Virus record (IMG/VR): IMGVR_UViG_3300030108_005945
Location: 13,582 to 34,712 of that record
DNA from: a virus
Length of the DNA: 21,131 nt
Strand: one strand, 5' to 3'
The notes under the pieces are model-generated. The model made no database searches and was not told where the DNA came from. It saw only the letters and a program-made list of their open reading frames with translations. The position numbers were made by a program, and so were the translations under genes. Below, one piece after another: positions 11 to 21,131 of this stretch; the stretch's first letter is position 1, and each line of letters starts with the position of its first letter.

Positions 11-28
11 AAGGAACTAGCCTATAAT
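11..28 (+). promoter_or_regulatory. Putative promoter, copy 1 of the AAGGAACT/TATAAT block
   Basis: AAGGAACT (11-18), four bases, TATAAT (23-28), six bases, then the ATG at 35. The same words with identical spacing recur before the genes at 197 and 398. TATAAT as a -10 box would put the start site on or next to the ATG. Seen directly; promoter function is inferred. Confidence 0.6.
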
Positions 29-34
29 AACAGT

Positions 35-184
35 ATGCCAGAAGAGTTGAGAAACATTAGCGAAAATCTGCAGGCGAATTTGATTGCATATTTGGATGGG
101 ATTCAATCAGTCCTGCCGGAAGGGTCGGAAGACGTTATCGATGGTGTGTGTCAGATAGTTGTAGATACGTTAAAGGAACTCTAA
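35..184 (+). CDS. Small hypothetical protein, 49 aa
   Basis: ATG to TAA, 49 residues, starting MPEELRNISENL and ending VVDTLKEL. It is acidic, with an amphipathic helical look and no transmembrane segment. I do not recognise the family. The start is supported by the promoter block exactly six bases upstream. Its last codons (AAG GAA CTC) form part of the AAGGAACT element serving the next gene, so the two are tightly packed. Like the rest of the first 1.3 kb it uses more G and C at third positions than later genes. It is probably an early-type phage gene of unknown role; existence is supported mainly by the repeated promoter-to-ATG layout. Confidence 0.6.
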   Translation: MPEELRNISENLQANLIAYLDGIQSVLPEGSEDVIDGVCQIVVDTLKEL

Positions 185-190
185 TATAAT
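173..190 (+). promoter_or_regulatory. Putative promoter, copy 2 of the AAGGAACT/TATAAT block
   Basis: AAGGAACT (173-180), four bases, TATAAT (185-190), six bases, ATG at 197. The block overlaps the 3' end and stop codon of the upstream gene, yet the spacing is exactly that of copies 1 and 3. Confidence 0.6.
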
Positions 191-196
191 AAGAGT

Positions 197-370
197 ATGC
201 CGAAAACAGACTTTGAAAAACTAACAGAGGAGCGCTCAGCCGCTACACTACTAAGAGATGAACTGTGCTTCCTTATTGGATGGACGAAAGCAGATAACCC
301 GGAGATTGCGGAGAAGCTCGAGAAGGCTTTGAAGATGCATGAAGAAGCAAGGTGCCAGGATTGGCTCTAA
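197..370 (+). CDS. Small hypothetical protein, 57 aa
   Basis: ATG to TAA, 57 residues, starting MPKTDFEKLTEERSAATL and ending ARCQDWL. It is charged and probably helical, with two cysteines and no signal peptide or membrane segment. I do not recognise it. The start lies six bases after TATAAT in the second promoter block. It begins MP- like its neighbour at 35, but the rest is not obviously similar. It sits with the RadA-like gene in a set of three genes that each have their own identical promoter block, which suggests coordinated, probably early, expression. Confidence 0.6.
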   Translation: MPKTDFEKLTEERSAATLLRDELCFLIGWTKADNPEIAEKLEKALKMHEEARCQDWL

Positions 371-373
371 TAC

Positions 374-391
374 AAGGAACTATACTATAAT
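374..391 (+). promoter_or_regulatory. Putative promoter, copy 3 of the AAGGAACT/TATAAT block
   Basis: AAGGAACT (374-381), four bases, TATAAT (386-391), six bases, ATG at 398 of the RadA-like gene. Unlike copy 2 it lies in non-coding DNA after the previous stop, so the conserved words are not a by-product of coding sequence. Confidence 0.65.
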
Positions 392-397
392 ATTGTT

Positions 398-1303
398 ATG
401 CAGATGAAACTAGGAATTGACCAGACAGACTTTACCGCAGTAGGTAATATTGAGATCCCTGAGATCTTTTTTAATCGTATGAAGTCCGGAGTACAGGACT
501 TCGATAAGCTTTTTGGAGAAGGGCTCCTGCCTGGGGCTTCTATTACGCTGACGGCTCAGGCTGGGTGCGGCAAGACTACGTTCGCCCTCCAGCTACTTGA
601 GAACTTGTCGCAGGCTGGGTACGCTACCGGTTACGCCTCTGGGGAGGAGAACTGCTTCCAGCTCGCCTTTACTTGTAGGCGCCTTAACGTCAAAGGTGTG
701 AAGATCGCTAACGTTACCGATATCGATACGATCGCTAAGGCGATGGAAGATAACGATGTGATGGTCGTCGATTCGTTCCAGGCTCTGACTACTAAGACTA
801 AGATGAATAGTAGGCAGCTGGAGCAGTACGCCATCAGTACGCTGTGCAATAAAGCTAAGGAGACCGAGTGTGTGTTGATCTTTATTATGCACCTTACTAA
901 GAGTGGCCAGTTGAAGGGCTCGACTCTCGTACCTCACTCCGTCGATGTCAATATGATGATCAGTCATGACCTCGAGTCGGACGACGATACTACTCGTATC
1001 ATCTCAGTATCGAAGAACCGCTTCGGTCAGTGCATCGATGTACAAGCCATTATGGGCCATAAGGGCTTCCATATCGGCGAGAAGGTAACGACTGGTAAGA
1101 AGATTAAGTCCAAGAAGGATAGGAAGGCTGAGCTTAAGAAGAATATCCTCAAGATGGACCCGCCTAACATTACTGAGCAGAAGGTAATGTCAACCTTTAA
1201 CCTTACTAAAGGTCAGACGTACGTAGCGCTTAAGCAGCTCGTAGATGATAAGAAGCTTAAGAAGTATGGTAGAGGTTCTAGGGCAGTATGGAAGAAGATC
1301 TAA
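398..1303 (+). CDS. RadA/RecA-like recombination ATPase with C-terminal winged-helix-like region
   Basis: A 301-residue P-loop ATPase of the RecA fold, closest in motif order to RadA (Sms), which promotes strand exchange and branch migration. Visible: Walker A around residues 53-61 (AQAGCGKTT), SGEEN at 81-85, Walker B VMVVDS at 121-126, HLTKSG at 165-170, and the RadA hallmark KNRFG at 206-210. RadA normally has an N-terminal zinc finger and a C-terminal Lon-like domain. Both are missing; instead residues about 245-301 are basic and look like a winged helix (ITEQKVM...TYVALKQL). That pattern resembles short phage Sak4/RadA-type proteins, and a DnaB-like role is less likely. The start lies six bases after TATAAT. 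Codon use is richer in G and C than most of the window. Likely role: phage recombination or replication. Confidence 0.8.
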   Translation: MQMKLGIDQTDFTAVGNIEIPEIFFNRMKSGVQDFDKLFGEGLLPGASITLTAQAGCGKTTFALQLLENLSQAGYATGYASGEENCFQLAFTCRRLNVKGVKIANVTDIDTIAKAMEDNDVMVVDSFQALTTKTKMNSRQLEQYAISTLCNKAKETECVLIFIMHLTKSGQLKGSTLVPHSVDVNMMISHDLESDDDTTRIISVSKNRFGQCIDVQAIMGHKGFHIGEKVTTGKKIKSKKDRKAELKKNILKMDPPNITEQKVMSTFNLTKGQTYVALKQLVDDKKLKKYGRGSRAVWKKI

Positions 1304-1521: not shown

Positions 1522-1529
1522 CATAAATA
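1522..1529 (+). promoter_or_regulatory. Late-type promoter word, CATAAATA
   Basis: A 7/8 match to the T4 late consensus TATAAATA, exactly five bases before ATG 1535. Part of the series described in the findings. Confidence 0.55.
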
Positions 1530-1857: not shown

Positions 1858-1865
1858 ACTAAATA
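1858..1865 (+). promoter_or_regulatory. Late-type promoter word, ACTAAATA
   Basis: TAAATA core, 6/8 to TATAAATA, exactly five bases before ATG 1871. Confidence 0.4.
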
Positions 1866-6651: not shown

Positions 6652-6659
6652 AATAAATA
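6652..6659 (+). promoter_or_regulatory. Late-type promoter word, AATAAATA
   Basis: A 7/8 match to TATAAATA, exactly five bases before ATG 6665, in non-coding DNA. TATAAT overlaps at 6649-6654. Confidence 0.6.
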
Positions 6660-6664
6660 CATAT

Positions 6665-7057
6665 ATGAAAATTAAATTGTTTGCGCTCGTCGCATTTGCA
6701 GCAGGACTTGCAGTAGCAAGTGGTACTCCTGAAAAGGAAGAAGGAAGAAAAGATCGAAGTAAACCAGGTATTAAACAGTGGATTGAAAAATTTGATAAGA
6801 ATGGTGATGGTAAGTTGGATGAAGCTGAGCGTAAAGCTGCTGGTGAGGCTAGAAAAAAAATGTTTCTTGAAAAATTCGATAAAGACGGAGATGGTAAGCT
6901 TAGTGCAGAAGAACGTAAAGCTGCAGCAAATGCTATGAAAAAGCGTAGAGGCTCTAGACCTGAAGGTAAGCGTCCTGAAGGTAAGCGTCCTGAAGGTAAA
7001 GGACCAAAAGGTAAAGGTAAAGGTAAAGGTAAAGGACCAAAGCCTGGAAAAAAGTAA
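6665..7057 (+). CDS. Secreted EF-hand calcium-binding protein with Lys/Gly-rich repeat tail
   Basis: A 130-residue exported protein. Residues 1-20 are a Sec signal peptide (MKIKLFALVAFAAGLAVASG). Two canonical EF-hand loops follow, DKNGDGKLDEAE at about 43-54 and DKDGDGKLSAEE at about 72-83, each with D, N/D, D, K and E in the calcium-coordinating positions. The tail from about 95 is a low-complexity basic region: three RPEGK units (15-base DNA repeats, 6956-7000), then KG dipeptides. EF-hand proteins of this design are frequent in Planctomycetes and Verrucomicrobia and rare in phages. It likely acts in the periplasm or outside the cell, perhaps binding calcium or polyanionic polymers. A late-type promoter sits five bases upstream, tying it to phage expression. 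Confidence 0.8.
   Translation: MKIKLFALVAFAAGLAVASGTPEKEEGRKDRSKPGIKQWIEKFDKNGDGKLDEAERKAAGEARKKMFLEKFDKDGDGKLSAEERKAAANAMKKRRGSRPEGKRPEGKRPEGKGPKGKGKGKGKGPKPGKK
6956..7040 (+). repeat. Tandem codon repeats inside the EF-hand gene
   Basis: Three near-identical 15-base units (CCTGAAGGTAAGCGT-like, encoding RPEGK) followed by several 6-base GGTAAA units encoding GK. Such tracts are prone to slippage and length variation. Confidence 0.8.
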
Positions 7058-7133: not shown

Positions 7134-7545
7134 GGGGGTGCCATGGATTCGACATTATGTAGGATTTATAACTCGCATACCGTGGTTGATCGGTTGGCCA
7201 CGTTAAAAGCCGATTAATTACATAACTGCAGAACAAGAAGAAGCAGACCTTCTTGCGCAAGCAGAAGCCATCTTCAACAACCCAGATGCATTCTTGGTTC
7301 AAGAAGAAGCGCTTTTAGCAGCGTAGAAAACAAACATGGATTCTCATTAAAGTGTTTGGGTAACGCAATGAGTTGTTAATATAGCGATTAGCGTAATAAG
7401 CAGCTAGATTAGAACATAACATAATTAAAAGAAATGTAGGACGGTTGATATAGCCATATATCCTTAAAATAGAATATATCTAAGTATGTAGACGGTTGTT
7501 TTGACAACTTAATGGACAGGGGTTCGATCCCCCTCACCTCCACCA
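7134..7545 (+). ncRNA. ssrA: Transfer-messenger RNA (tmRNA) with 32-residue tag
   Basis: Ribosome-rescue RNA of about 412 bases. The 5' end GGGGGTG (7134-7140) pairs with CACCTCC (7534-7540) as the acceptor stem, including the G3-U70 pair that marks alanine identity. TGGATTCGAC follows at the D-loop position, and the 3' end has a T-arm AGGGG-TTCGATC-CCCCT and an encoded CCA. Pseudoknot 1 is visible: CGTGG/CCACG interlocked with ATCGG/CCGAT (about 7181-7214). Thirteen bases later the resume codon GCA (7228) opens a frame to TAG at 7324-7326. The tag begins AEQEEADLLAQ and ends EEALLAA, 32 residues, long compared with the usual 10-15. Downstream sequence should hold the remaining pseudoknots. 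It lies between two phage genes; phage tmRNAs are known but uncommon. Confidence 0.93.
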
Positions 7546-7546
7546 A

Positions 7547-7569
7547 TAGGAACCTCTTTATAATAAATA
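7547..7569 (+). promoter_or_regulatory. Overlapping early-type and late-type promoter words before the lysozyme gene
   Basis: TAGGAACC (7547-7554), four bases, TATAAT (7559-7564) copies the spacing of the blocks at 11, 173 and 374 with a 6/8 match. Overlapping it, AATAAATA (7562-7569) lies exactly five bases before GTG 7575. The element starts two bases after the tmRNA CCA end. Confidence 0.55.
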
Positions 7570-7574
7570 TATAC

Positions 7575-8399
7575 GTGACTCAGCAATTTGACGAAGGTAT
7601 GAAAGAAATAGTTTTAGGTTTATTAGCTATAGGTTCTGCACCCTTTTCAGCAGATAAGATACAAGATTTTCTGGATAAACGACCAGAGCCTATAGAACAA
7701 AAAATTGATGCAATCGATACAGTTGAAGATATTATGCCTTCAACAAACTTTCATAGAGCAGCAGAAGAGTATTTGAAACAATATGAAACACGTGATAAGA
7801 ACGGCTATACTCCTCCTGAGCTACCTGATACAAGAAAAGCTACGAAATCGATTACAGCTGTAGAAGATTTTCCACCAGATAAATCAGATTCTGAGGTACT
7901 TAATTTAGCTGGAAATTTAATTAAACCGGTAGAAATTTATGGTGACGATATTAACGACCCAAGAAATAAAAAGTTTTTAAGACCATATACTGATGATGTA
8001 GGTATATATACTATAGGAATAGGTCATAAGATTGGAGATGGTTCTAGAGCAGCAAAAAACAAATGGGTACAAAAATACGGAAACTCTATTTCACCACAAT
8101 TTGCCGAACAATTATTTAATAAGAGATTAAACTATCATTTAGAGAGAGTAAAAGGTATTTTTGGTTTGACGTTTAATGATTTAAATGATGAGCAAGCTGC
8201 TGTTTTACTTGATATTAGTTATAGAGGTGATTTATTACCAGGTATGAATTGGGTTAAATTATTACAACAAGGTAAAAATATAGAAGCTGCAAATGAATAT
8301 CTTGATCACAAAGAGTACAAAAGACGTAAGAGTAAAGGGAGAGATGGAGTAGTTAAGAGAATGGAGAGAAATGCTGGTATACTTGCAGATAAAACTTAA
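7575..8399 (+). CDS. GH24 (T4-type) lysozyme, phage endolysin or structural muramidase
   Basis: A muramidase of the phage-lysozyme family that cleaves the glycan backbone of peptidoglycan. Starting at GTG 7575 it has 274 residues; an in-frame ATG at 7512 lies inside the tmRNA T-arm region and is rejected. Residues 9-26 (MKEIVLGLLAIGSAPFSA) look like a signal or signal-anchor. A 90-residue linker follows. The catalytic domain begins near 115: E120 (KPVEIYG), then YTDDVGIYTIGIGHKIGDG at about 138-156 with the conserved T and GH, then AVLLDISYRGDL and a basic C-terminus. About 12 extra residues separate the catalytic Glu from the TIG.GH motif compared with T4 lysozyme. A second lysin (amidase) lies at 13703, so one of the two could be virion-associated. 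Confidence 0.85.
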   Translation: MTQQFDEGMKEIVLGLLAIGSAPFSADKIQDFLDKRPEPIEQKIDAIDTVEDIMPSTNFHRAAEEYLKQYETRDKNGYTPPELPDTRKATKSITAVEDFPPDKSDSEVLNLAGNLIKPVEIYGDDINDPRNKKFLRPYTDDVGIYTIGIGHKIGDGSRAAKNKWVQKYGNSISPQFAEQLFNKRLNYHLERVKGIFGLTFNDLNDEQAAVLLDISYRGDLLPGMNWVKLLQQGKNIEAANEYLDHKEYKRRKSKGRDGVVKRMERNAGILADKT

Positions 8400-8402
8400 A
8401 TA
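8395..8402 (+). promoter_or_regulatory. Late-type promoter word, CTTAAATA
   Basis: TAAATA core, 6/8 to TATAAATA, exactly five bases before ATG 8408. It overlaps the lysozyme stop codon. Confidence 0.4.
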
Positions 8403-8407
8403 AAGAT

Positions 8408-8731
8408 ATGGCGGTAACAATAGAATTTTCCACAGCGGTACCTTATATAAGCAGTAATAAAGTTGTAGAGTGGGAGCTAGGAATGACGTTTACTAATAGT
8501 ACCTCTGGCGCAGCAGATTATTATGTTTCAGAATTTTCAACAACTTTGGAAGCTGATAATGGTGATTTTATACCGAAGAGAGAATCAGCTTGGACACGTG
8601 CAAATTTAAATACAATGTTAAATGGTTTATCAGGTCATTGGAATGCAATTTTTGCGTCACAGGTAGCATCGGTAATTACAAGTCCCCCAGATAATCCAAC
8701 GCCTGATAAGAATTATGTTATACCTTCATAA
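8408..8731 (+). CDS. Small hypothetical phage protein, beta-rich, 107 aa
   Basis: A 107-residue soluble protein. The first 60 residues alternate as beta strands (MAVTIEFSTAVPYISSNKVVEWELGMTF, then TTLEADNGDFIPK). A helical segment follows (ESAWTRANLNTMLNGLSGHWNAIFASQVASV) and a proline-rich tail (SPPDNPTPDKNYVIPS). There is no signal peptide. Size, strand-then-helix order and the position of the conserved aromatic/helix segment recall the protein at 1535, but the C-terminal GVPW ending is absent. Possibly a minor structural component; no family was recognised. A weak late-type word lies five bases upstream of the start. Confidence 0.65.
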   Translation: MAVTIEFSTAVPYISSNKVVEWELGMTFTNSTSGAADYYVSEFSTTLEADNGDFIPKRESAWTRANLNTMLNGLSGHWNAIFASQVASVITSPPDNPTPDKNYVIPS

Positions 8732-9310: not shown

Positions 9311-9484
9311 ATGGATTTTATAACACCTCCAGATAAAGACAATATAATATGGCGTATAAAAAAATCCGATAATACACACGTGTATATGATATTAGAGGGT
9401 TCAGGCGACCATACGTGGATTGAAATTGAATACTTGGTTAAATACCCTTGGTATTCGTCTCTTTTAGATTGGCTATCAGGCTAA
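9311..9484 (+). CDS. Small hypothetical protein directly after the terminator, 57 aa
   Basis: ATG at 9311 follows the terminator T-run immediately; 57 codons, TAA at 9482-9484. The product starts MDFITPPDKDNIIWRIKKSD and ends YPWYSSLLDWLSG; it is rich in W, Y, D and I and looks like a plausible small alpha-beta protein, not random sequence. Its end overlaps the last nine bases of the convergent DUF1501 gene. No promoter word or ribosome site lies upstream, because the terminator occupies that DNA; it would depend on readthrough. A longer in-frame start at 9209 runs inside the beta-barrel gene and through the terminator and is unlikely. Confidence 0.4.
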   Translation: MDFITPPDKDNIIWRIKKSDNTHVYMILEGSGDHTWIEIEYLVKYPWYSSLLDWLSG

Positions 9485-10678
9485 GACTTCTTTAATAGGT
9501 GTACCTTTTGCAGCTATATAAAATGGTCTACCAGTTGGTGAGAGAAACTCTTGTTCTACTGGGAGACCTAACGCTCTCCCTATTGTAGCGTTAACATCAG
9601 ATATTGTATATGGGTTTTTAATTACTTTAGATGCCGTCTTATTAGTCTCCCCAGCCACGTAGCCGCCTTTAACCCCTGCACCGATAAGAACTGTTGAATA
9701 ACAAGATGGATGATGATCACGACCATCATTAACATTTATCTTTGGCGTTCTACCAAACTCAGTCACAAGAGCTATAAGTGTAGTATCTAAAAGACCTTCG
9801 CTATCTAAATCCAATACTAATGCACTTAAAGCATCATCTACTTCTTTAAGTTTATTATCTAACTTAGTAAAGTTATCTACATGGGTATCCCAACCACCGT
9901 TATTAATTTCTATAAATTTAATATCACCTTTAATTAAACGTTTAGCTAAAAGACAACCTTGGCCTAATTTAGTATTACCATATCTAGATCTAGATTCTGG
10001 TCTCTCTTTAGTTAAGTCAAATAATTCTAAATCTTTAGATTTTAAAAATCTTACTGTATTATCATAGAACTCATTATACTCTGTAGCTAGAGGTGCTTTA
10101 AACTTACTATTGATCTCTCGTAATATATGCATTCTTTCTTCAAGTTTACTATCTACTTTAGAATTTTTTAACCCTCCATTAGGATCTATAATAGGTAGAG
10201 GAGATTTAACCTTAGGTAAGAATCCAGAATTAGGATGAGCAGAAGAACCAGAAATTAAAACATAATCAGGAATATCTTTTTCTCTATCTTGAATATGAGC
10301 TACCCAAGAACCCAAACTTGGATGTACTATACTACCTATTTGCCTATAAGATGTTCTATTAAGATATTGAGCTTGTTCATGTGCTCCTGTTTTAGAATGT
10401 GTTGATCTTATAATAGACATTTTATCTACTACTTCTGCTAATTTTGGTAACCTATTACCTAATTCTATTCCACTTACATTTGTGCTTATCTTTGTTGTAT
10501 CTCCCATTACATCTTTATTATCTTTAGGATCAAAAGAATCTATATGGCTCATACCCCCGTCTAAGCAAATGTAAATAACATTTTTAGCTTTTGAAGCTAT
10601 AGGTACATCTTTAGCATCTAATGTCTTTAGACCGTAAGTAGATGCTGCTAGGGTTTGTATAAATAGTCGTCTGTTCAT
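9476..10678 (-). CDS. DUF1501 family protein (sulfatase-like fold) with Tat-type signal
   Basis: A 400-residue member of DUF1501, a family related to sulfatases and alkaline phosphatases and very common in Planctomycetes and Verrucomicrobia. The N-terminus MNRRLFIQTL carries a twin-arginine-type motif, predicting export in folded form. Conserved sites: CLDGGMSHIDSFDPK at 38-52, HEQAQYL at 100-106, NGGWDTH at 260-266, TEFGRTP at 306-312, and GRDHHP at 319-324, which look like the metal and active-site positions of the fold. Length is near normal for the family. It starts one base downstream of the DUF1549 stop on the same strand, so the pair form an operon; in bacteria these two families are regularly adjacent. 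Substrate unknown; roles in envelope or polysaccharide processing are suggested from genomic context only. Confidence 0.88.
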   Translation of the reverse strand: MNRRLFIQTLAASTYGLKTLDAKDVPIASKAKNVIYICLDGGMSHIDSFDPKDNKDVMGDTTKISTNVSGIELGNRLPKLAEVVDKMSIIRSTHSKTGAHEQAQYLNRTSYRQIGSIVHPSLGSWVAHIQDREKDIPDYVLISGSSAHPNSGFLPKVKSPLPIIDPNGGLKNSKVDSKLEERMHILREINSKFKAPLATEYNEFYDNTVRFLKSKDLELFDLTKERPESRSRYGNTKLGQGCLLAKRLIKGDIKFIEINNGGWDTHVDNFTKLDNKLKEVDDALSALVLDLDSEGLLDTTLIALVTEFGRTPKINVNDGRDHHPSCYSTVLIGAGVKGGYVAGETNKTASKVIKNPYTISDVNATIGRALGLPVEQEFLSPTGRPFYIAAKGTPIKEVLA

Positions 10679-10679
10679 A

Positions 10680-12422
10680 TTAGCTTATTAGTTTAAATTC
10701 ATGCGAGTTAATTAGTATCCATACTATATCTTCATAACTTGCGTCTTTTAATAATTCTCTCTCTTTATCATTAGGAGCTCTTCCTATATAAGATATAAAA
10801 ATTATATTCATTCCTAATTCACGTTTCATATCTTTAGCTTGGCTAGCTACGTACCCGTTATTATCTTGAAGTGCTTGTGTTACACCCCCATTCATTAAAT
10901 TTAATATTTGGGTTATGTTTGGCTGTTCGTTACCTGTTTCAATAAGCTCTCTATCCGATCTACCAAACTCTCTTAAAAAATTAGCGTTACGTCCTTCGAA
11001 TATATGTGAAGATCTTATTACTAAATTACCTTTTATTTTAGGTGCACCTTCATAATAACTGCCTCTTATTTTAGTATACTGGTCCCATTTTTTTAAAGCA
11101 TCATTGACAGGCATAGATTGTAAACCTGTAAAGAGATCTATGTAATCCTGCTTCCTGTCCTTAGGTTGCCACTTGTCCGGGTCACCTTGATATAAAGTCA
11201 CTATAGAGTCCCATAGTTGTGCACTAGTCATTCTTCTTAAAACAGGCCCTTTAAATTCGTTATCTGGGTCAATTTTAGCTTGATAGAACTTTGTATTATA
11301 TAAAATATTATTAAACTTCTTTAAATCATAATCAACCTCTTTCATCACTTTAACTAAGTATTCTATTAATCGAGTATTACGACCATCTTTTACTTCATCA
11401 AATAAAGCTACTTCATTTAAATTATCTATTAATGGAAAGCCAAACGATCTATCCCATAACCGATTTACTATATTAGCAGCAAATGTTGGATGTGTATCAT
11501 TAGCTAACCAGTTGGCAAAATTCTCTCTTAACCCTTCTCTCTTACGCTTCTCTTTAACTCTGTCTCCTACTGCTGTTTCAGCTTTTACCACTTCACCGGG
11601 TTCAGCATCTCTATACTTATAATCATCTGGAAGCTTTAATTTCTTATCTTGATCCTGTACTATAGTATGCTGATATCCATGTCTATAAAATTGTCCTATT
11701 CTATTAGTAGAACCTTTTTGTTTCCCGGACTTATCTAACTCTTCAGCTTCTTTTCTTAATCGTTGAAACTCCTTTCTATCTTCTTTTTTACCTCTAGTAT
11801 TTAACTGAGTGAAGAATGCTGTCATATTATAATAATCCATCTGCGTCCAATCATCAAATGGATGATCATGACATTGTGCACAACTTATATTCATTCCAGC
11901 AAAAGCTTGAAATGTATTACTAACATTATCGAGAAGCATTCCTTCATCTCTTAAGAAATAACCCACTTCTGGATTCTCCCATATGTTACCTTCCGCAGTT
12001 AATATCTTTTTTACAAACTCATCATATGGTGTATTGTTTTCTATTTCTTGTTTAACCCAAGTTATATATGTATCACCATCAATATTGTTAGAAAGACGTC
12101 TCTTTATTCTAAGAAGATCAGCATAAAAGTTAAACATACTTTCTGTATAACCTTTAGAGTTTTGAAGATCTTCAATTAATTTTTTTCTGTCGGGTCTCTT
12201 TATAAACGTTTTCCATTCTTCGTATGTAGGTACCCTTCCAGCAATATCTATATATGCCCTCCTTACAAATATGAAGGGGTTAACTACTATAGGCAACTCA
12301 ATCCTTTTATTTTTAAGATCATTAGCAATAATTTTATCTATTTCTTTACTATGATCTATCGTTTGATTTGCTTGAATATTAGAGCAAAGTAGACATAAAA
12401 ATATTGTTATAGCTTTCACCAT
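10680..12422 (-). CDS. DUF1549/DUF1553 domain protein lacking the PSCyt1 cytochrome domain
   Basis: A 580-residue secreted protein, with signal peptide at 1-18 (MVKAITIFLCLLCSNIQA). DUF1549 spans about 25-210: NPFIFVRRAYIDIAGRVPT at 48-66, GNIWENP, and CAQCHDHPFDDW at 181-192, whose CxxCH could bind haem. DUF1553 spans about 300-560, starting NFANWLANDTHP...NIVNRLWDRSFG at 301-328, with RRMTSAQLWDSI, LVIRSSHIFEGRNANFLREFGR, and NLMNGG later. Planctomycete homologues usually have 700-1100 residues with an N-terminal PSCyt1 cytochrome domain or other extras; this is a compact version. It is co-transcribed with the DUF1501 gene. A perfect TATAAATA five bases before the ATG makes it look like a phage late gene. 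Confidence 0.88.
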   Translation of the reverse strand: MVKAITIFLCLLCSNIQANQTIDHSKEIDKIIANDLKNKRIELPIVVNPFIFVRRAYIDIAGRVPTYEEWKTFIKRPDRKKLIEDLQNSKGYTESMFNFYADLLRIKRRLSNNIDGDTYITWVKQEIENNTPYDEFVKKILTAEGNIWENPEVGYFLRDEGMLLDNVSNTFQAFAGMNISCAQCHDHPFDDWTQMDYYNMTAFFTQLNTRGKKEDRKEFQRLRKEAEELDKSGKQKGSTNRIGQFYRHGYQHTIVQDQDKKLKLPDDYKYRDAEPGEVVKAETAVGDRVKEKRKREGLRENFANWLANDTHPTFAANIVNRLWDRSFGFPLIDNLNEVALFDEVKDGRNTRLIEYLVKVMKEVDYDLKKFNNILYNTKFYQAKIDPDNEFKGPVLRRMTSAQLWDSIVTLYQGDPDKWQPKDRKQDYIDLFTGLQSMPVNDALKKWDQYTKIRGSYYEGAPKIKGNLVIRSSHIFEGRNANFLREFGRSDRELIETGNEQPNITQILNLMNGGVTQALQDNNGYVASQAKDMKRELGMNIIFISYIGRAPNDKERELLKDASYEDIVWILINSHEFKLIS

Positions 12423-13264: not shown

Positions 13265-13385
13265 TTATTAATTTTTTCTGTTTATCTCTAGACTCAGTAA
13301 CTACGCGGTGATAATGCGTCTTATTCCTTAGCTCCAAGTAAGCAACTAAGGCTCGTAATACGCCTTTTATCAAACCACCAGCCAC
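13113..13385 (-). CDS. Small coiled-coil protein, candidate inner spanin (Rz-like)
   Basis: A 90-residue protein from a GTG six bases after the holin-like gene stop. The first 19 residues (MAGGLIKGVLRALVAYLEL) are moderately hydrophobic and could be a weak membrane anchor. Residues about 25-80 form charged helices (DKQKKLINEIETLRTAG, then ADILRDELLDEKRHLEHLSAFY). The lipoprotein gene at 13264 begins inside it in another frame. Together with the amidase and holin-like genes this suggests an i-spanin. Doubt: the N-terminal segment is short for a transmembrane helix, so it could instead be a peripheral lysis or structural protein. Confidence 0.5.
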   Translation of the reverse strand: MAGGLIKGVLRALVAYLELRNKTHYHRVVTESRDKQKKLINEIETLRTAGDVDSNDRADILRDELLDEKRHLEHLSAFYLKSVEGSTDSK

Positions 13386-13391
13386 GGTTAA

Positions 13392-13649
13392 TTATTTTTT
13401 AGTAGCTTTTTTAACAACATTAGAAACTGCATCTTTTACAGTCTCTTCAACTTTTTCTTCAACTACAGCTTTTGCTTTAGCCTTGCCGATGTTAAGTGCT
13501 AAAAACTCTACAACTTTGTAGATCTTAGATACCCAGCTTCCTTCTTTAGGAGTTGGGGTTGCAGCACAAAAAGCAGCAGCTGCAGCAATAATAGCTGCGA
13601 TTAAGCCAAACCATGGTTTGTCACTAATAAACTCAAGTATCATATCCAT
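13392..13649 (-). CDS. Holin-like membrane protein next to the amidase endolysin
   Basis: An 85-residue protein. Residues about 12-30 (WFGLIAAIIAAAAAFCAA) make one strong membrane helix; TPTPKEGSW follows, then a second, weaker hydrophobic helix (KIYKVVEFLALNIGKAK). The C-terminus is basic and Lys/Val-rich (VSNVVKKATKK). Small size, one or two membrane segments, charged C-terminus and divergence from the amidase gene 53 bases away fit a holin. It heads the minus-strand lysis unit, holin-like, i-spanin-like, o-spanin-like. GATAAATA lies five bases before the ATG, followed by CTTTTATGG, identical to the bases before the amidase start. An in-frame second Met (residue 3) leaves room for a dual start. 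Confidence 0.6.
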   Translation of the reverse strand: MDMILEFISDKPWFGLIAAIIAAAAAFCAATPTPKEGSWVSKIYKVVEFLALNIGKAKAKAVVEEKVEETVKDAVSNVVKKATKK

Positions 13650-13689: not shown

Positions 13690-13697
13690 AATAAATA
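13690..13697 (+). promoter_or_regulatory. Late-type promoter word, AATAAATA, amidase side
   Basis: A 7/8 match to TATAAATA, exactly five bases before ATG 13703. With the minus-strand copy it forms a mirrored divergent promoter pair in a 53-base gap. Confidence 0.65.
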
Positions 13698-13702
13698 CTT
13701 TT

Positions 13703-14443
13703 ATGGCACTTAAAGATACAACAAAGAAAATTCAAGAGGCTGTAGGAGCTACAGCAGATGGTATTTACGGTAAGAATACTGCGTTAAAAATTATAAGTAA
13801 GCTAGGATTTACTAAAGAAGAACTTACTAAAATTATTCAGAAAAAAACTGATTCTCTTCCAGATGGTGCTTATGGACCTAACACAGCAAAAACTATTTTA
13901 GAAGCGTTAGGCTTAAGTAAAGAACCCGCAGTGGTTCAGGTCGCATCAAGTGCCGTCGACGGAACATATCCAGAAATTAGTAAACCATCACCAAACATAT
14001 CTTCCTCAAAAATTAGACCTGAAGGGGTAGTACTTCACCACTCGTCGGGTTCATATGCAGGTTCAGTAAGTTGGATATGTCAATCAAAGTCGCAGGTATC
14101 ATATCACTGTCTTATAGATACTAATGGTGAAAGAACAGTTTTTGCTGATGATGATCGTCGGTGCTGGCATGCAGGTAAATCAAGTTTTAATGGCCGTACA
14201 AACTGTAATGGCTTTTTATTAGGTTTATCTTTTAGTGGTAATACGCATACAAGAGAGTTAACTGATGATGAAGTAGCTTCTGCAGTTGAATGGCTAGTCC
14301 CTAGATTCGAAAAGTGGGGGTGGCCAAAAGATCTTTCAACAGTAACAACACATAGAGAGATCTCACCAGGGAGAAAAGATGATCCGGATTCTCGTGCAGA
14401 AGACAAAATAAAGAGTGCATTAGAGGCTGCTTTTAATAAATAA
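13703..14443 (+). CDS. N-acetylmuramoyl-L-alanine amidase endolysin with N-terminal wall-binding repeats
   Basis: A 246-residue zinc amidase that cuts between MurNAc and the stem peptide. The N-terminus has two peptidoglycan-binding-like repeats at about 8-36 (ATADGIYGKNTALKI) and 43-71 (SLPDGAYGPNTAKTI). After a linker (72-105) comes an Amidase_2/PGRP domain: VVLHHSSG at 109-116, HCLIDTNG at 135-142, CWHAGKSSFNG at 154-164, and THREISPGRKDDP at 216-228. H112 or H113, H217 and the Asp at 226-227 are the probable zinc ligands; K225 is the usual catalytic Lys/Tyr position. No signal peptide, so release should need a holin, and a holin-like gene lies divergently next to it. The start is supported by AATAAATA five bases upstream. 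Confidence 0.9.
   Translation: MALKDTTKKIQEAVGATADGIYGKNTALKIISKLGFTKEELTKIIQKKTDSLPDGAYGPNTAKTILEALGLSKEPAVVQVASSAVDGTYPEISKPSPNISSSKIRPEGVVLHHSSGSYAGSVSWICQSKSQVSYHCLIDTNGERTVFADDDRRCWHAGKSSFNGRTNCNGFLLGLSFSGNTHTRELTDDEVASAVEWLVPRFEKWGWPKDLSTVTTHREISPGRKDDPDSRAEDKIKSALEAAFNK
14435..14442 (+). promoter_or_regulatory. Late-type promoter word, AATAAATA
   Basis: A 7/8 match to TATAAATA, exactly five bases before ATG 14448. It is built from the last codons and the stop of the amidase gene (AAT AAA TAA), so coding constraints contribute to it. Confidence 0.45.
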
Positions 14444-19036: not shown

Positions 19037-19651
19037 ATGAAATGGAAATATGATAATCAAGAAGAAGGTACTGAAACTAATACATCACAATATATAAATG
19101 CAGGAGCATCCGGAGGAGGGTCAGTAACTAAAACTGTAGAGAATAACATATATTTTTATGGTGATATTTTAGAAAGTAATGCATTAGAATTAAATGCTTC
19201 TTTATATGAATTAGATAAAAAACTTTCAGTTACTAAAGTATTTTTAGATATAAAACCGGTTATAAATTTAAGAATAAATTCATACGGAGGTTCACTTTTT
19301 GCTGGACTAGCTACTGTTGATGTTATTAGAAATTTAAAATGTGATGTTCATTCTTATATAGAAGGAGCAGCTGCTTCTGCAGCTACTATTATCTCTGTTG
19401 CATGTAAAAAGAGATTTATAGGAAAATATTCTAAGATGCTTATACATCAATTAAGCGCTGGTGTATACGGTAAGTATACAGAGCTTGAAGATGATATGGA
19501 AAATAATAAACATCTTATGGCTACTATAAAAAAGATTTACAAAGAGTATACTAATTTACCGATGAAAAAGCTTGATGAAATTCTTAAGCATGACTTATGG
19601 TTTGATAGTAAAGTATGTTTAGAATATGGTCTAGTTGATGAAATAGTCTAA
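19037..19651 (+). CDS. ClpP-like serine protease
   Basis: I start at ATG 19037 (MKWKYDNQEEG), giving 204 residues; an in-frame ATG at 18998 inside nrdA would add 13. The ClpP/crotonase fold is clear: YFYGDILESNA, then LRINSYGGSLFAGLAT (oxyanion Gly-Gly), EGAAASAATI with nucleophile Ser114, MLIHQLSAG with His137, and HDLWFDSKVCLEYGLVDEI with Asp186, matching the ClpP S-H-D triad. The N-terminal 35 residues are polar and Gly/Ser-rich (NAGASGGGSVTKT). Similar proteins occur in T4-like marine phages, and ClpP-like prohead proteases occur in other phages, so processing of phage proteins or interplay with host Clp are both possible. It overlaps the convergent gene by four bases, sharing stop-codon bases. 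Confidence 0.88.
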   Translation: MKWKYDNQEEGTETNTSQYINAGASGGGSVTKTVENNIYFYGDILESNALELNASLYELDKKLSVTKVFLDIKPVINLRINSYGGSLFAGLATVDVIRNLKCDVHSYIEGAAASAATIISVACKKRFIGKYSKMLIHQLSAGVYGKYTELEDDMENNKHLMATIKKIYKEYTNLPMKKLDEILKHDLWFDSKVCLEYGLVDEIV

Positions 19652-21131
19652 TTAGTAGGCGTTTCTTTAGCAAAAGAACCATCTTTTTCAACCTGAGGAA
19701 AAGGCGGTTTTATATCACCATCAATATTAACTCTTCTTCTATCATGAGGTAGCAAGGTACTTTCATTTTCTCGTTCTAATGGTATAGGAGCAGCTGGAGT
19801 AGTACTAGGATTCTTTTTTCCATGTCCTATAGGCAATGCTGGTGTACTAAAACCATCTACATTTATATCTTCAGCACTAGCCATCTCTCTTATATTAGCT
19901 CCAGATTCTGTTAATCTTAAAGGTAGATTTTTAAAGTGATGTGAATGAGGAACCATTTCTATTATATCATTATCACTAGATCTAATAGTTATAGGACAAT
20001 TACGAATAGTACCTAGAGGAAATCCTAAATCTATATCAGCTCTAAATTTTAACCCATTTACTAATTTACCAAATACTGTTGTATCTTCTGTTTGTTGTAA
20101 CTCTGCAGGAGCAGTTACATGATGTAAATAAGTTTCTCCTTGAAGATAGCTACCTCCACCAACTATTAAATTATTTTTAACTCCTAATCCTGGTTCGATA
20201 TAAATTTGTTTATTAGAGCGAAGAGAAATATTTTTTAAAGAATTTATTTCAACTAAATTTTCACTACCTATATGTATACCTTTAGAAGAGTTAATAGTAA
20301 CTTTATGGGCAGCTAGTTTATAACTTGTAGCACCTACTTCGACAGGTCCAGTAGTTTTTACATCTATACCCCCAGAACCTACACTAATATTATATTTGTT
20401 AGCTGCCTGTACAGTATAGTTACCAACTGGAAATTTACTATTATCAACTTCTTCTACATGAGGAACTGACTCTACATCTACATACGCACCTGCATGTGTA
20501 CCTACAGTTACTCTTCCTGGAGTCGATCTTCCTGTATCATCAAATCTAATAGATGGATAATCATTAAAAGTAGCTCCAACCATAATAACTTTATTTCTAA
20601 AAGTAAACTCTTGATCATCTCCACCTACATTAGGACCATCGCCAAATGCTTTAAGTTCTAAATCAGTTAATTTTTCTTCTTGTAGTCTTGTTATTTCTTC
20701 ATCTAATTTTTCTTTTTCAATAGTAGGGTCAAAACTTCCTCCTTCTGTAGCCGGGTTCTCATCGTCACCATAATCAGCTACCGAAGGGTTGAGAACTACT
20801 CTACGAGAGGGTTGAACATTATAATTTGAATAAGAATTTACTTGATTGCTACTACTATTAACTTCAGAACTAGAAGCATTTGTAGAAGGAAAGCCTTGAT
20901 CTTCATTCAAATAAATTTCTTGACTTTTAGAAGGATTTTGACTCTTTGTACCTGATTTAGGAGTTACAACTCCATTAGGATAACTCTCACCTCCTCTTAA
21001 AACTGTGAATTGTGAATTTCGCTCAGCGATAGGGGTATATGCCTCTTTCCAATCAGCTACAGCTTGAACTTGATCTTCGTTTTTAAATCCATGTTCTTGA
21101 ACTTTTGAACCTACTACCTTTTCTATATAGT
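19648..21131 (-). CDS. Baseplate or tail structural protein, partial (5' end outside the window)
   Basis: The frame is open from the window edge (21131) to TAG at 19648, at least 494 codons; a TTG at 20910 is internal and not the true start. The part nearest the edge reads QEHGFKNEDQVQAVADW and AYTPIAERNSQFTVLRG; a polar linker rich in S, N and P follows. The centre (about 20450-20150) is repetitive beta sequence, NYTVQAANKYNISVGSGG, KLAAHKVTINSSKGIHIGS, ISLRSNKQIYIEPG, like the beta-helix of gp5/VgrG-type spikes. The C-terminal third has HSHHFKNLPLRL and PALPIGHGKK. A T4 gp5-like hub or spike, or another baseplate component, is likely; no lysozyme motif is visible in the portion present. Structural role is confident, exact identity is not. 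Confidence 0.6.
   Translation of the reverse strand, partial: YIEKVVGSKVQEHGFKNEDQVQAVADWKEAYTPIAERNSQFTVLRGGESYPNGVVTPKSGTKSQNPSKSQEIYLNEDQGFPSTNASSSEVNSSSNQVNSYSNYNVQPSRRVVLNPSVADYGDDENPATEGGSFDPTIEKEKLDEEITRLQEEKLTDLELKAFGDGPNVGGDDQEFTFRNKVIMVGATFNDYPSIRFDDTGRSTPGRVTVGTHAGAYVDVESVPHVEEVDNSKFPVGNYTVQAANKYNISVGSGGIDVKTTGPVEVGATSYKLAAHKVTINSSKGIHIGSENLVEINSLKNISLRSNKQIYIEPGLGVKNNLIVGGGSYLQGETYLHHVTAPAELQQTEDTTVFGKLVNGLKFRADIDLGFPLGTIRNCPITIRSSDNDIIEMVPHSHHFKNLPLRLTESGANIREMASAEDINVDGFSTPALPIGHGKKNPSTTPAAPIPLERENESTLLPHDRRRVNIDGDIKPPFPQVEKDGSFAKETPTN

Follow-up and report, generated by a model that had tools for sequence, protein, structure and literature searches.

Three consecutive genes at the start of a 21,131-base stretch of viral DNA stand behind one and the same block of sequence, which raises the questions of what this block does, which viruses use it and what reads it. 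The stretch, hereafter the window, comes from a virus record of 34,712 bases, where it runs from 13582 to 34712.

Identical blocks ahead of three consecutive genes

The block, AAGGAACT-N4-TATAAT-N6-ATG, was found exactly at 11-37, 173-199 and 374-400 on the plus strand of the window (Table 1). Both spacings were identical in the three copies, as the preliminary description had stated, and the number of matches expected by chance in the window was 0.29 with up to three mismatches allowed. The overlap described between copy 2 and the end of the previous gene was recovered as well, the box falling on the codons AAG GAA CTC TAA (K-E-L-stop). At record positions 13330 and 13471 lies a pair of which copies 1 and 2, with their two genes, are near-duplicates. 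Diverged copies of the two genes flank both sides of an NNNN gap at about record positions 13578-13581, just before window position 1, and the pair may have arisen by tandem duplication, or the assembler may have joined two strain variants across a scaffold gap. The result is independent of this pair because the full record holds 16 exact AGGAACT-N4-TATAAT sites, accompanied by three one-mismatch sites, all on one strand; the opposite strand had zero exact sites and the reversed control gave 1. The ATPase family encoded behind copy 3 was present in eight of 13 records.

Table 1. Coordinates of the block copies, their genes, predicted late-type promoters and related elements (window positions unless a record is named)
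Feature	Position	Strand	Remark
AAGGAACT box, copy 1	11..18	+	-24 to -17, taking the ATG as the start
TATAAT -10 element, copy 1	23..28	+	
Gene A, 49 aa, without family	35..184	+	diverged second version at record positions 13353-13481, across the NNNN gap
AAGGAACT box, copy 2	173..180	+	formed by the last codons of gene A
TATAAT -10 element, copy 2	185..190	+	
Gene B, 57 aa, without family	197..370	+	
AAGGAACT box, copy 3	374..381	+	
TATAAT -10 element, copy 3	386..391	+	
KaiC/DnaB-like ATPase gene, 301 aa	398..1303	+	behind copy 3
TAAATA-N5-ATG late-type promoter	1524..1529	+	gene 1535-1855
TAAATA-N5-ATG late-type promoter	1860..1865	+	gene 1871-2260
TAAATA-N5-ATG late-type promoter	6654..6659	+	gene 6665-7057
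Partial copy TAGGAACC-N4-TATAAT	7547..7564	+	overlaps late-type promoter
TAAATA late-type element	7564..7569	+	N5, then GTG 7575 (endolysin-like gene)
TAAATA-N5-ATG late-type promoter	8397..8402	+	gene 8408-8731
TAAATA-N5-ATG late-type promoter	13692..13697	+	endolysin/amidase gene 13703-14443
Tandem cassettes (four), G005	~25059, 24857, 31923, 43092	minus	
Tandem cassette (one), G020	~9207		

The block has the properties of a promoter

In some 1 Mb of DNA from the clade, AGGAAC and TATAAT stood N5 apart 193 times, while each of the remaining spacings between 0 and 39 was counted 0-7 times. The consensus of 343 sites, which were preselected for AGGAAC and TATAAT, was WWAAGGAACTctgATATAATAA, with the N4 before TATAAT leaning to CTGA. 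TATAAT was nearly invariant at its fixed distance from the box and was mostly followed by AA or TA. The gap to the ATG varied more (N6 at 185 sites, N5 at 69 and N7 at 13), and this combination of rigid spacing to TATAAT and looser spacing to ATG is the behavior of a promoter and unlike that of a translation signal. None of the columns upstream of WWAAGGAAC was conserved in the 343 sites, which thus lack a -35 element; one close to TTGACA would lie some 17 bp upstream of the -10. Because the block also stands ahead of tRNA genes (8-27 bases before the first tRNA in several clusters) and of tmRNA genes (13 bases before that of G005), it acts on DNA as a promoter and not on ribosomes.

These observations bear on the idea that the block works at the level of RNA or translation, for instance as a ribosome-binding site far from the start codon (AAGGA) or as a place where a protein binds within a 5' untranslated region. 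AAGGA does resemble the Shine-Dalgarno core and most copies precede an ATG, but its end lies 19 bases before the ATG, TATAAT and not the ATG is what the box keeps at a rigid distance, and genes for untranslated RNAs carry the block too; we regard this reading as very improbable. Still less credible is a promoter of a phage single-subunit RNA polymerase. A long, rigid and phage-specific block is typical of such promoters in T7-like phages, but TATAAT is a sigma-type -10 and the phages are T4-type with gp55. PF00940 also matched none of the 37 records, a weak argument as control genomes gave none either.

Orthologous small genes in diverged genomes keep the same promoter in front, and the homologue of the copy-3 gene in G005 is likewise preceded by it (AAGGAACTATACTATAATATTGTTATG). 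The sites crowd the small-gene region; in G005 the interval 16-45 kb holds most of them, and structural genes have hardly any. The assignment to a promoter class made in the preliminary description was thus supported by the rigid box/-10 spacing, the strand bias, the tRNA and tmRNA sites, the lack of -35 conservation and the absence from cells described below. We also considered AAGGAACT as a free-standing operator and rejected it: 120 of 190 occurrences had TATAAT, many of the other 70 had one-base variants of the -10, and the rest were about as frequent as shuffled 8-mers.

A viral element confined to an uncultured T4-type clade

The full 27-base block matched at least 119 stretches in IMG/VR, compared with nine for a scrambled block of equal composition. 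In 36 further virus records AGGAACT-N4-TATAAT reached up to 19 sites per record, confined to a single strand in nearly all records, with no control matches; many records are fragments and some are near-identical, so these site counts are partly non-independent. This record-wide and clade-wide occurrence, obtained by the motif search over genome and relatives that the preliminary description had proposed, shows that the motif does not arise solely by local duplication. By contrast, 257 Gb of bacterial and archaeal genomes yielded 34 block matches, one per stretch, against about 30 expected by chance according to our own estimate (17 fixed bases, two strands), and more than one copy per genome contig was found in none of 84,980 species. 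The block is a property of viruses and is absent from any sampled cell beyond chance. A 30-base consensus queried against 50,697 phage records gave nothing convincing, and 11 named T4-type or marine phages had 0-3 near-matches each, which is the chance level; the block is used by no cultured T4-like phage among those checked. The literature searched, for the most part outside subscription journals, contained nothing relevant on the box or on leaderless T4-like phages.

The carriers form one deep, uncultured clade of the T4 superfamily that has gp55. T4-type gp23 was present in six large records, and in a gp23 tree five carriers formed one clade (support 100/100) distant from T4, P-SSM2 and HTVC008M, with best identities to isolates of about 34%. 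The 196,877-base G005 encodes T4-type gp17, 18, 20, 21, 23, 32, 41, 43, 44, 46, 47, 55, 61, uvsX and uvsW, and gp55 homologues were identified in G005 and G026. The record of the window is a fragment without gp23, tied to the clade by gene families that it shares with the large carriers (NrdA, NrdB, head maturation protease, the copy-3 ATPase and sigma, among others). No close isolated-phage relatives were found of the sigma factor, the ATPase or the protein at 19648-20910.

Predicted leaderless layout of early and late genes

Transcription starting seven bases after the -10 places +1 on the A of the ATG when the gap is N6. Judging from this geometry, transcripts would start at the ATG and most messages would be leaderless. 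The -10 element lies 5-7 bases ahead of the start codon, the arrangement by which leaderless genes are recognized. Strong Shine-Dalgarno sites were detected in 1-7% of genes in six clade records, similar to the background in a distant control stretch, compared with 26% in T4, 27% in HTVC008M and 23% in phiM9. Both the -10-to-ATG distances and this genome-wide lack of Shine-Dalgarno sites favor the leaderless messages that had been predicted from the three copies. Among the few host-type TTG-N17-TATATT promoters that stand in tandem with the box, the ATG mostly follows at the same distance.

A second element, TAAATA-N5-ATG, occurred 217 times in the clade versus about 10 times at other offsets. 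The predicted late promoters of the clade are of the gp55 type, with TAAATA at -11, likewise positioned for leaderless messages; in T4, TAAATA mostly lies 29-35 bases before the ATG, with the Shine-Dalgarno site between. This class also accounts for the site at 7547, for which membership as a fourth, partial copy had been suggested. Its last base begins a TAAATA with exact late-promoter geometry toward a GTG (Table 1), and it is best read as a putative late promoter with a partial box rather than as a degraded member of the AAGGAACT class. We also observed TAAATA at -11 from the ATG in nine genes of the Pelagibacter phage HTVC008M (L259-L265), with Shine-Dalgarno sites kept elsewhere. HTVC008M is thus a cultured T4-like phage with part of the leaderless late layout.

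A sigma-70-like gene with tandem promoters

A complete sigma-70-like gene with regions 1.2, 2, 3 and 4 was identified outside the window (L001:2887-4020). TTGAAC- or TTGAAA-N17-TATATT was conserved ahead of the gene in each of the seven sequences in the comparison. Six of these (G000 and L121-L125) also had a AAGGAACT-N4-TATAAT copy at the ATG of the gene; L126 has the sigma gene without the TATAAT copy. In the simplest reading, host polymerase would transcribe the gene first, and the AAGGAACT class would afterwards raise its expression.

The position of the gene directly behind a copy suggests that its product might itself read the box and activate its own gene in a positive loop, which the separate host-type promoter would start. 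Several findings make this rather unlikely. Nearly every residue of regions 2.4, 3.0 and 4.2 agrees with housekeeping RpoD, the helix VTRERIRQIEAKAIRKL that reads the -35 among them, so the factor would not be expected to recognize a new box; the gene was found in eight of 37 records; and it is absent from G017, though that record spans the homologous early region and has dozens of box sites. For these three reasons we do not assign the box to the phage sigma factor, and the sequence of L126 also speaks against the loop. As a universal reader of the box the factor was rejected, since a profile search was positive in just five of the 13 records read as sequence.

Phage-type and host-type promoters were also seen at a fixed distance elsewhere, in a cassette AAGGAACT-N4-TAWAAT-N15-TTGWAC-N17-TATATT located shortly before an ATG (Table 1). 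L125 has a perfect 22-base palindrome (AGTTCCTTATGCATAAGGAACT) some 100 bases ahead of its sigma gene at 10001. The palindrome consists of two inverted boxes with no -10, and boxes in tandem 12 bp apart occupy the same place upstream of sigma in L001 and L126. These tandem boxes and the inverted repeat were too few to serve as the basis for a reading.

What reads the box

Taken together, AAGGAACT-CTGA-TATAAT is probably the early/middle promoter of the clade, with a box-bound phage factor, leaderless starts and late genes of the gp55 type. As to start site, timing and the factor involved, we infer from the layout that RNA polymerase would contact TATAAT (-12 to -7) by way of region 2 of a sigma-70-type factor, while a phage-specific factor (an activator or a polymerase-bound phage protein) would sit on the box at -24 to -17 and replace the -35 contact. 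Transcription would begin at the A of the ATG, five or six bases past the -10, giving mostly leaderless messages. The box would act as the on-switch of tens of short transcription units, tRNA and tmRNA units included. The sigma-70-like gene would be transcribed first from its canonical host-type TTGAAC-N17-TATATT promoter and again from the AAGGAACT promoter, and late genes would then follow on gp55-type TAAATA promoters, also positioned for leaderless messages.

The main rival to a phage factor is that the host sigma-70 holoenzyme alone reads AAGGAACT and TATAAT as a plain early promoter, with the box lengthening an extended -10 element on its upstream side. TATAAT matches the sigma-70 -10 perfectly, CTGA is a frequent N4 and puts a TG one base before TATAAT (TGaTATAAT) as in extended -10 promoters, and the sites lie in the small-gene region, home of T4-type early genes. 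Against this, a host that read the block would be expected to hold many genomic copies, yet contigs of the sampled species have one at most (the host may be outside the collection), and the same phages carry separate host-type TTGAAC-N17-TATATT promoters in tandem with the box at sigma and other genes. We consider reading by the host alone unlikely, though less so than a sigma-driven loop.

The likeliest reader of the box would be a phage-encoded factor acting on host polymerase, a view to which we lean with moderate confidence because cells lack the sequence and because the letters of the box drift between records (AACGAACT in G017, AAGGAACA/AGGGAACA in G026) while TATAAT stays constant. The argument from these dialects is weak, since the hosts might not be the same either, and G017 has two dialects side by side. 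The box may bind an activator, as the preliminary description had suggested. Two universal small early proteins, one of 81 aa with four conserved cysteines and one of 60 aa, are candidate readers, and neither matched a Pfam family. The four-cysteine protein (~81-88 aa; L125:8816-9073, L124:8884-9150, L024:226-477) was present in nine of nine records that reach its region, had no match in isolates and is a candidate early regulator.

Comparison with known promoter systems

The preliminary description had placed the box away from -35, which stands, and gave its position as -23 to -16, which we correct to -24 to -17, counting from the A of the ATG as the start. This position lies outside the places of the -35-reading sigma region 4 and of the T4 MotA box, and the box matches none of the known T4 promoter classes. 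The -35 element of ECF sigma factors is GGAAC, about 16 bases from the -10. The clade box shares these letters but lies four bases from a -10 that is TATAAT, and the likeness is likely a coincidence.

T4 middle promoters (MotA/AsiA) come close in design. They too have a phage-specific box in place of the -35, upstream of a perfect sigma-70 -10, and serve many separate early-region units in a phage of the T4 superfamily. However, the T4 MotA box is TGCTTtA, with GCTT at -30 to -27 and 11-13 bases from the -10 (PMC1524935), whereas the clade has AAGGAACT as its sole conserved box, four bases from the -10, and messages that appear leaderless. A tblastn search for motA and asiA (E<=1e-3) gave no match in 13 records, which are incomplete, and these proteins diverge fast. 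Like the clade sites, T4 early promoters stand ahead of tRNA genes and small genes of unknown function (PMC1524935); unlike them, they feature GTTTAC from -36 to -31 together with a UP-like element rich in A (PMC1524935), while the clade sites show no conservation upstream of the AAGGAACT box. The TAAATA-N5-ATG class is of the same type as T4 late promoters (TATAAATA, gp55), and gp55 homologues are present; the AAGGAACT sites carry TATAAT, so they are not of the late class. Leaderless bacterial genes carry TANNNT some 10 bp ahead of the start codon (Zheng 2011, PMC3160421), and the clade shares with them a -10 directly ahead of the start codon with no 5' untranslated region. Those genes are cellular with an ordinary sigma-70 -10, whereas the phages add a nearly invariant upstream box and place both early and late promoter classes in the leaderless layout.

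We tentatively propose that this may be an undescribed architecture, in which a phage factor at -24 to -17 against the -10 takes over from the -35 contact and switches on tens of leaderless units in a T4-type clade without Shine-Dalgarno initiation, early and late alike. Middle promoters have gone unrecognized in cultured marine T4-like phages and are perhaps too diverged to detect, according to the authors of the methylophage Melnitz study (PMC9004378), and the study of the Far-T4 phages detected none of the T4 genes for transcription control (PMC4360716). In this clade, hundreds of copies make a replacement promoter class visible in the sequence itself, so its reader can be searched for directly. 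The layout suggests a whole lineage of large phages built for leaderless messages in early, tRNA and late units, which bears on phage adaptation to hosts with rare Shine-Dalgarno initiation. The 27-base signature can be used both to find these phages and to correct their gene starts.

Further features of the carriers

Two DUF1501 genes and one DUF1549/DUF1553 (PSCyt2/PSD1) gene were found at 9476-12422 of the window and at L001:4802-6223, with homologues in G005, G006 and G023, among others. These families are typical of Planctomycetes and Verrucomicrobia, a hint at a host from the PVC group. A late-type TAAATA promoter belongs to the DUF1549 gene, at about 12433-12428 on the minus strand. The window also encodes a phage tmRNA at 7134-7545 with an unusually long predicted tag (AEQEEADLLAQAEAIFNNPDAFLVQEEALLAA), and the tmRNA of G005 stands behind a AAGGAACA-N4-TAAAAT site.
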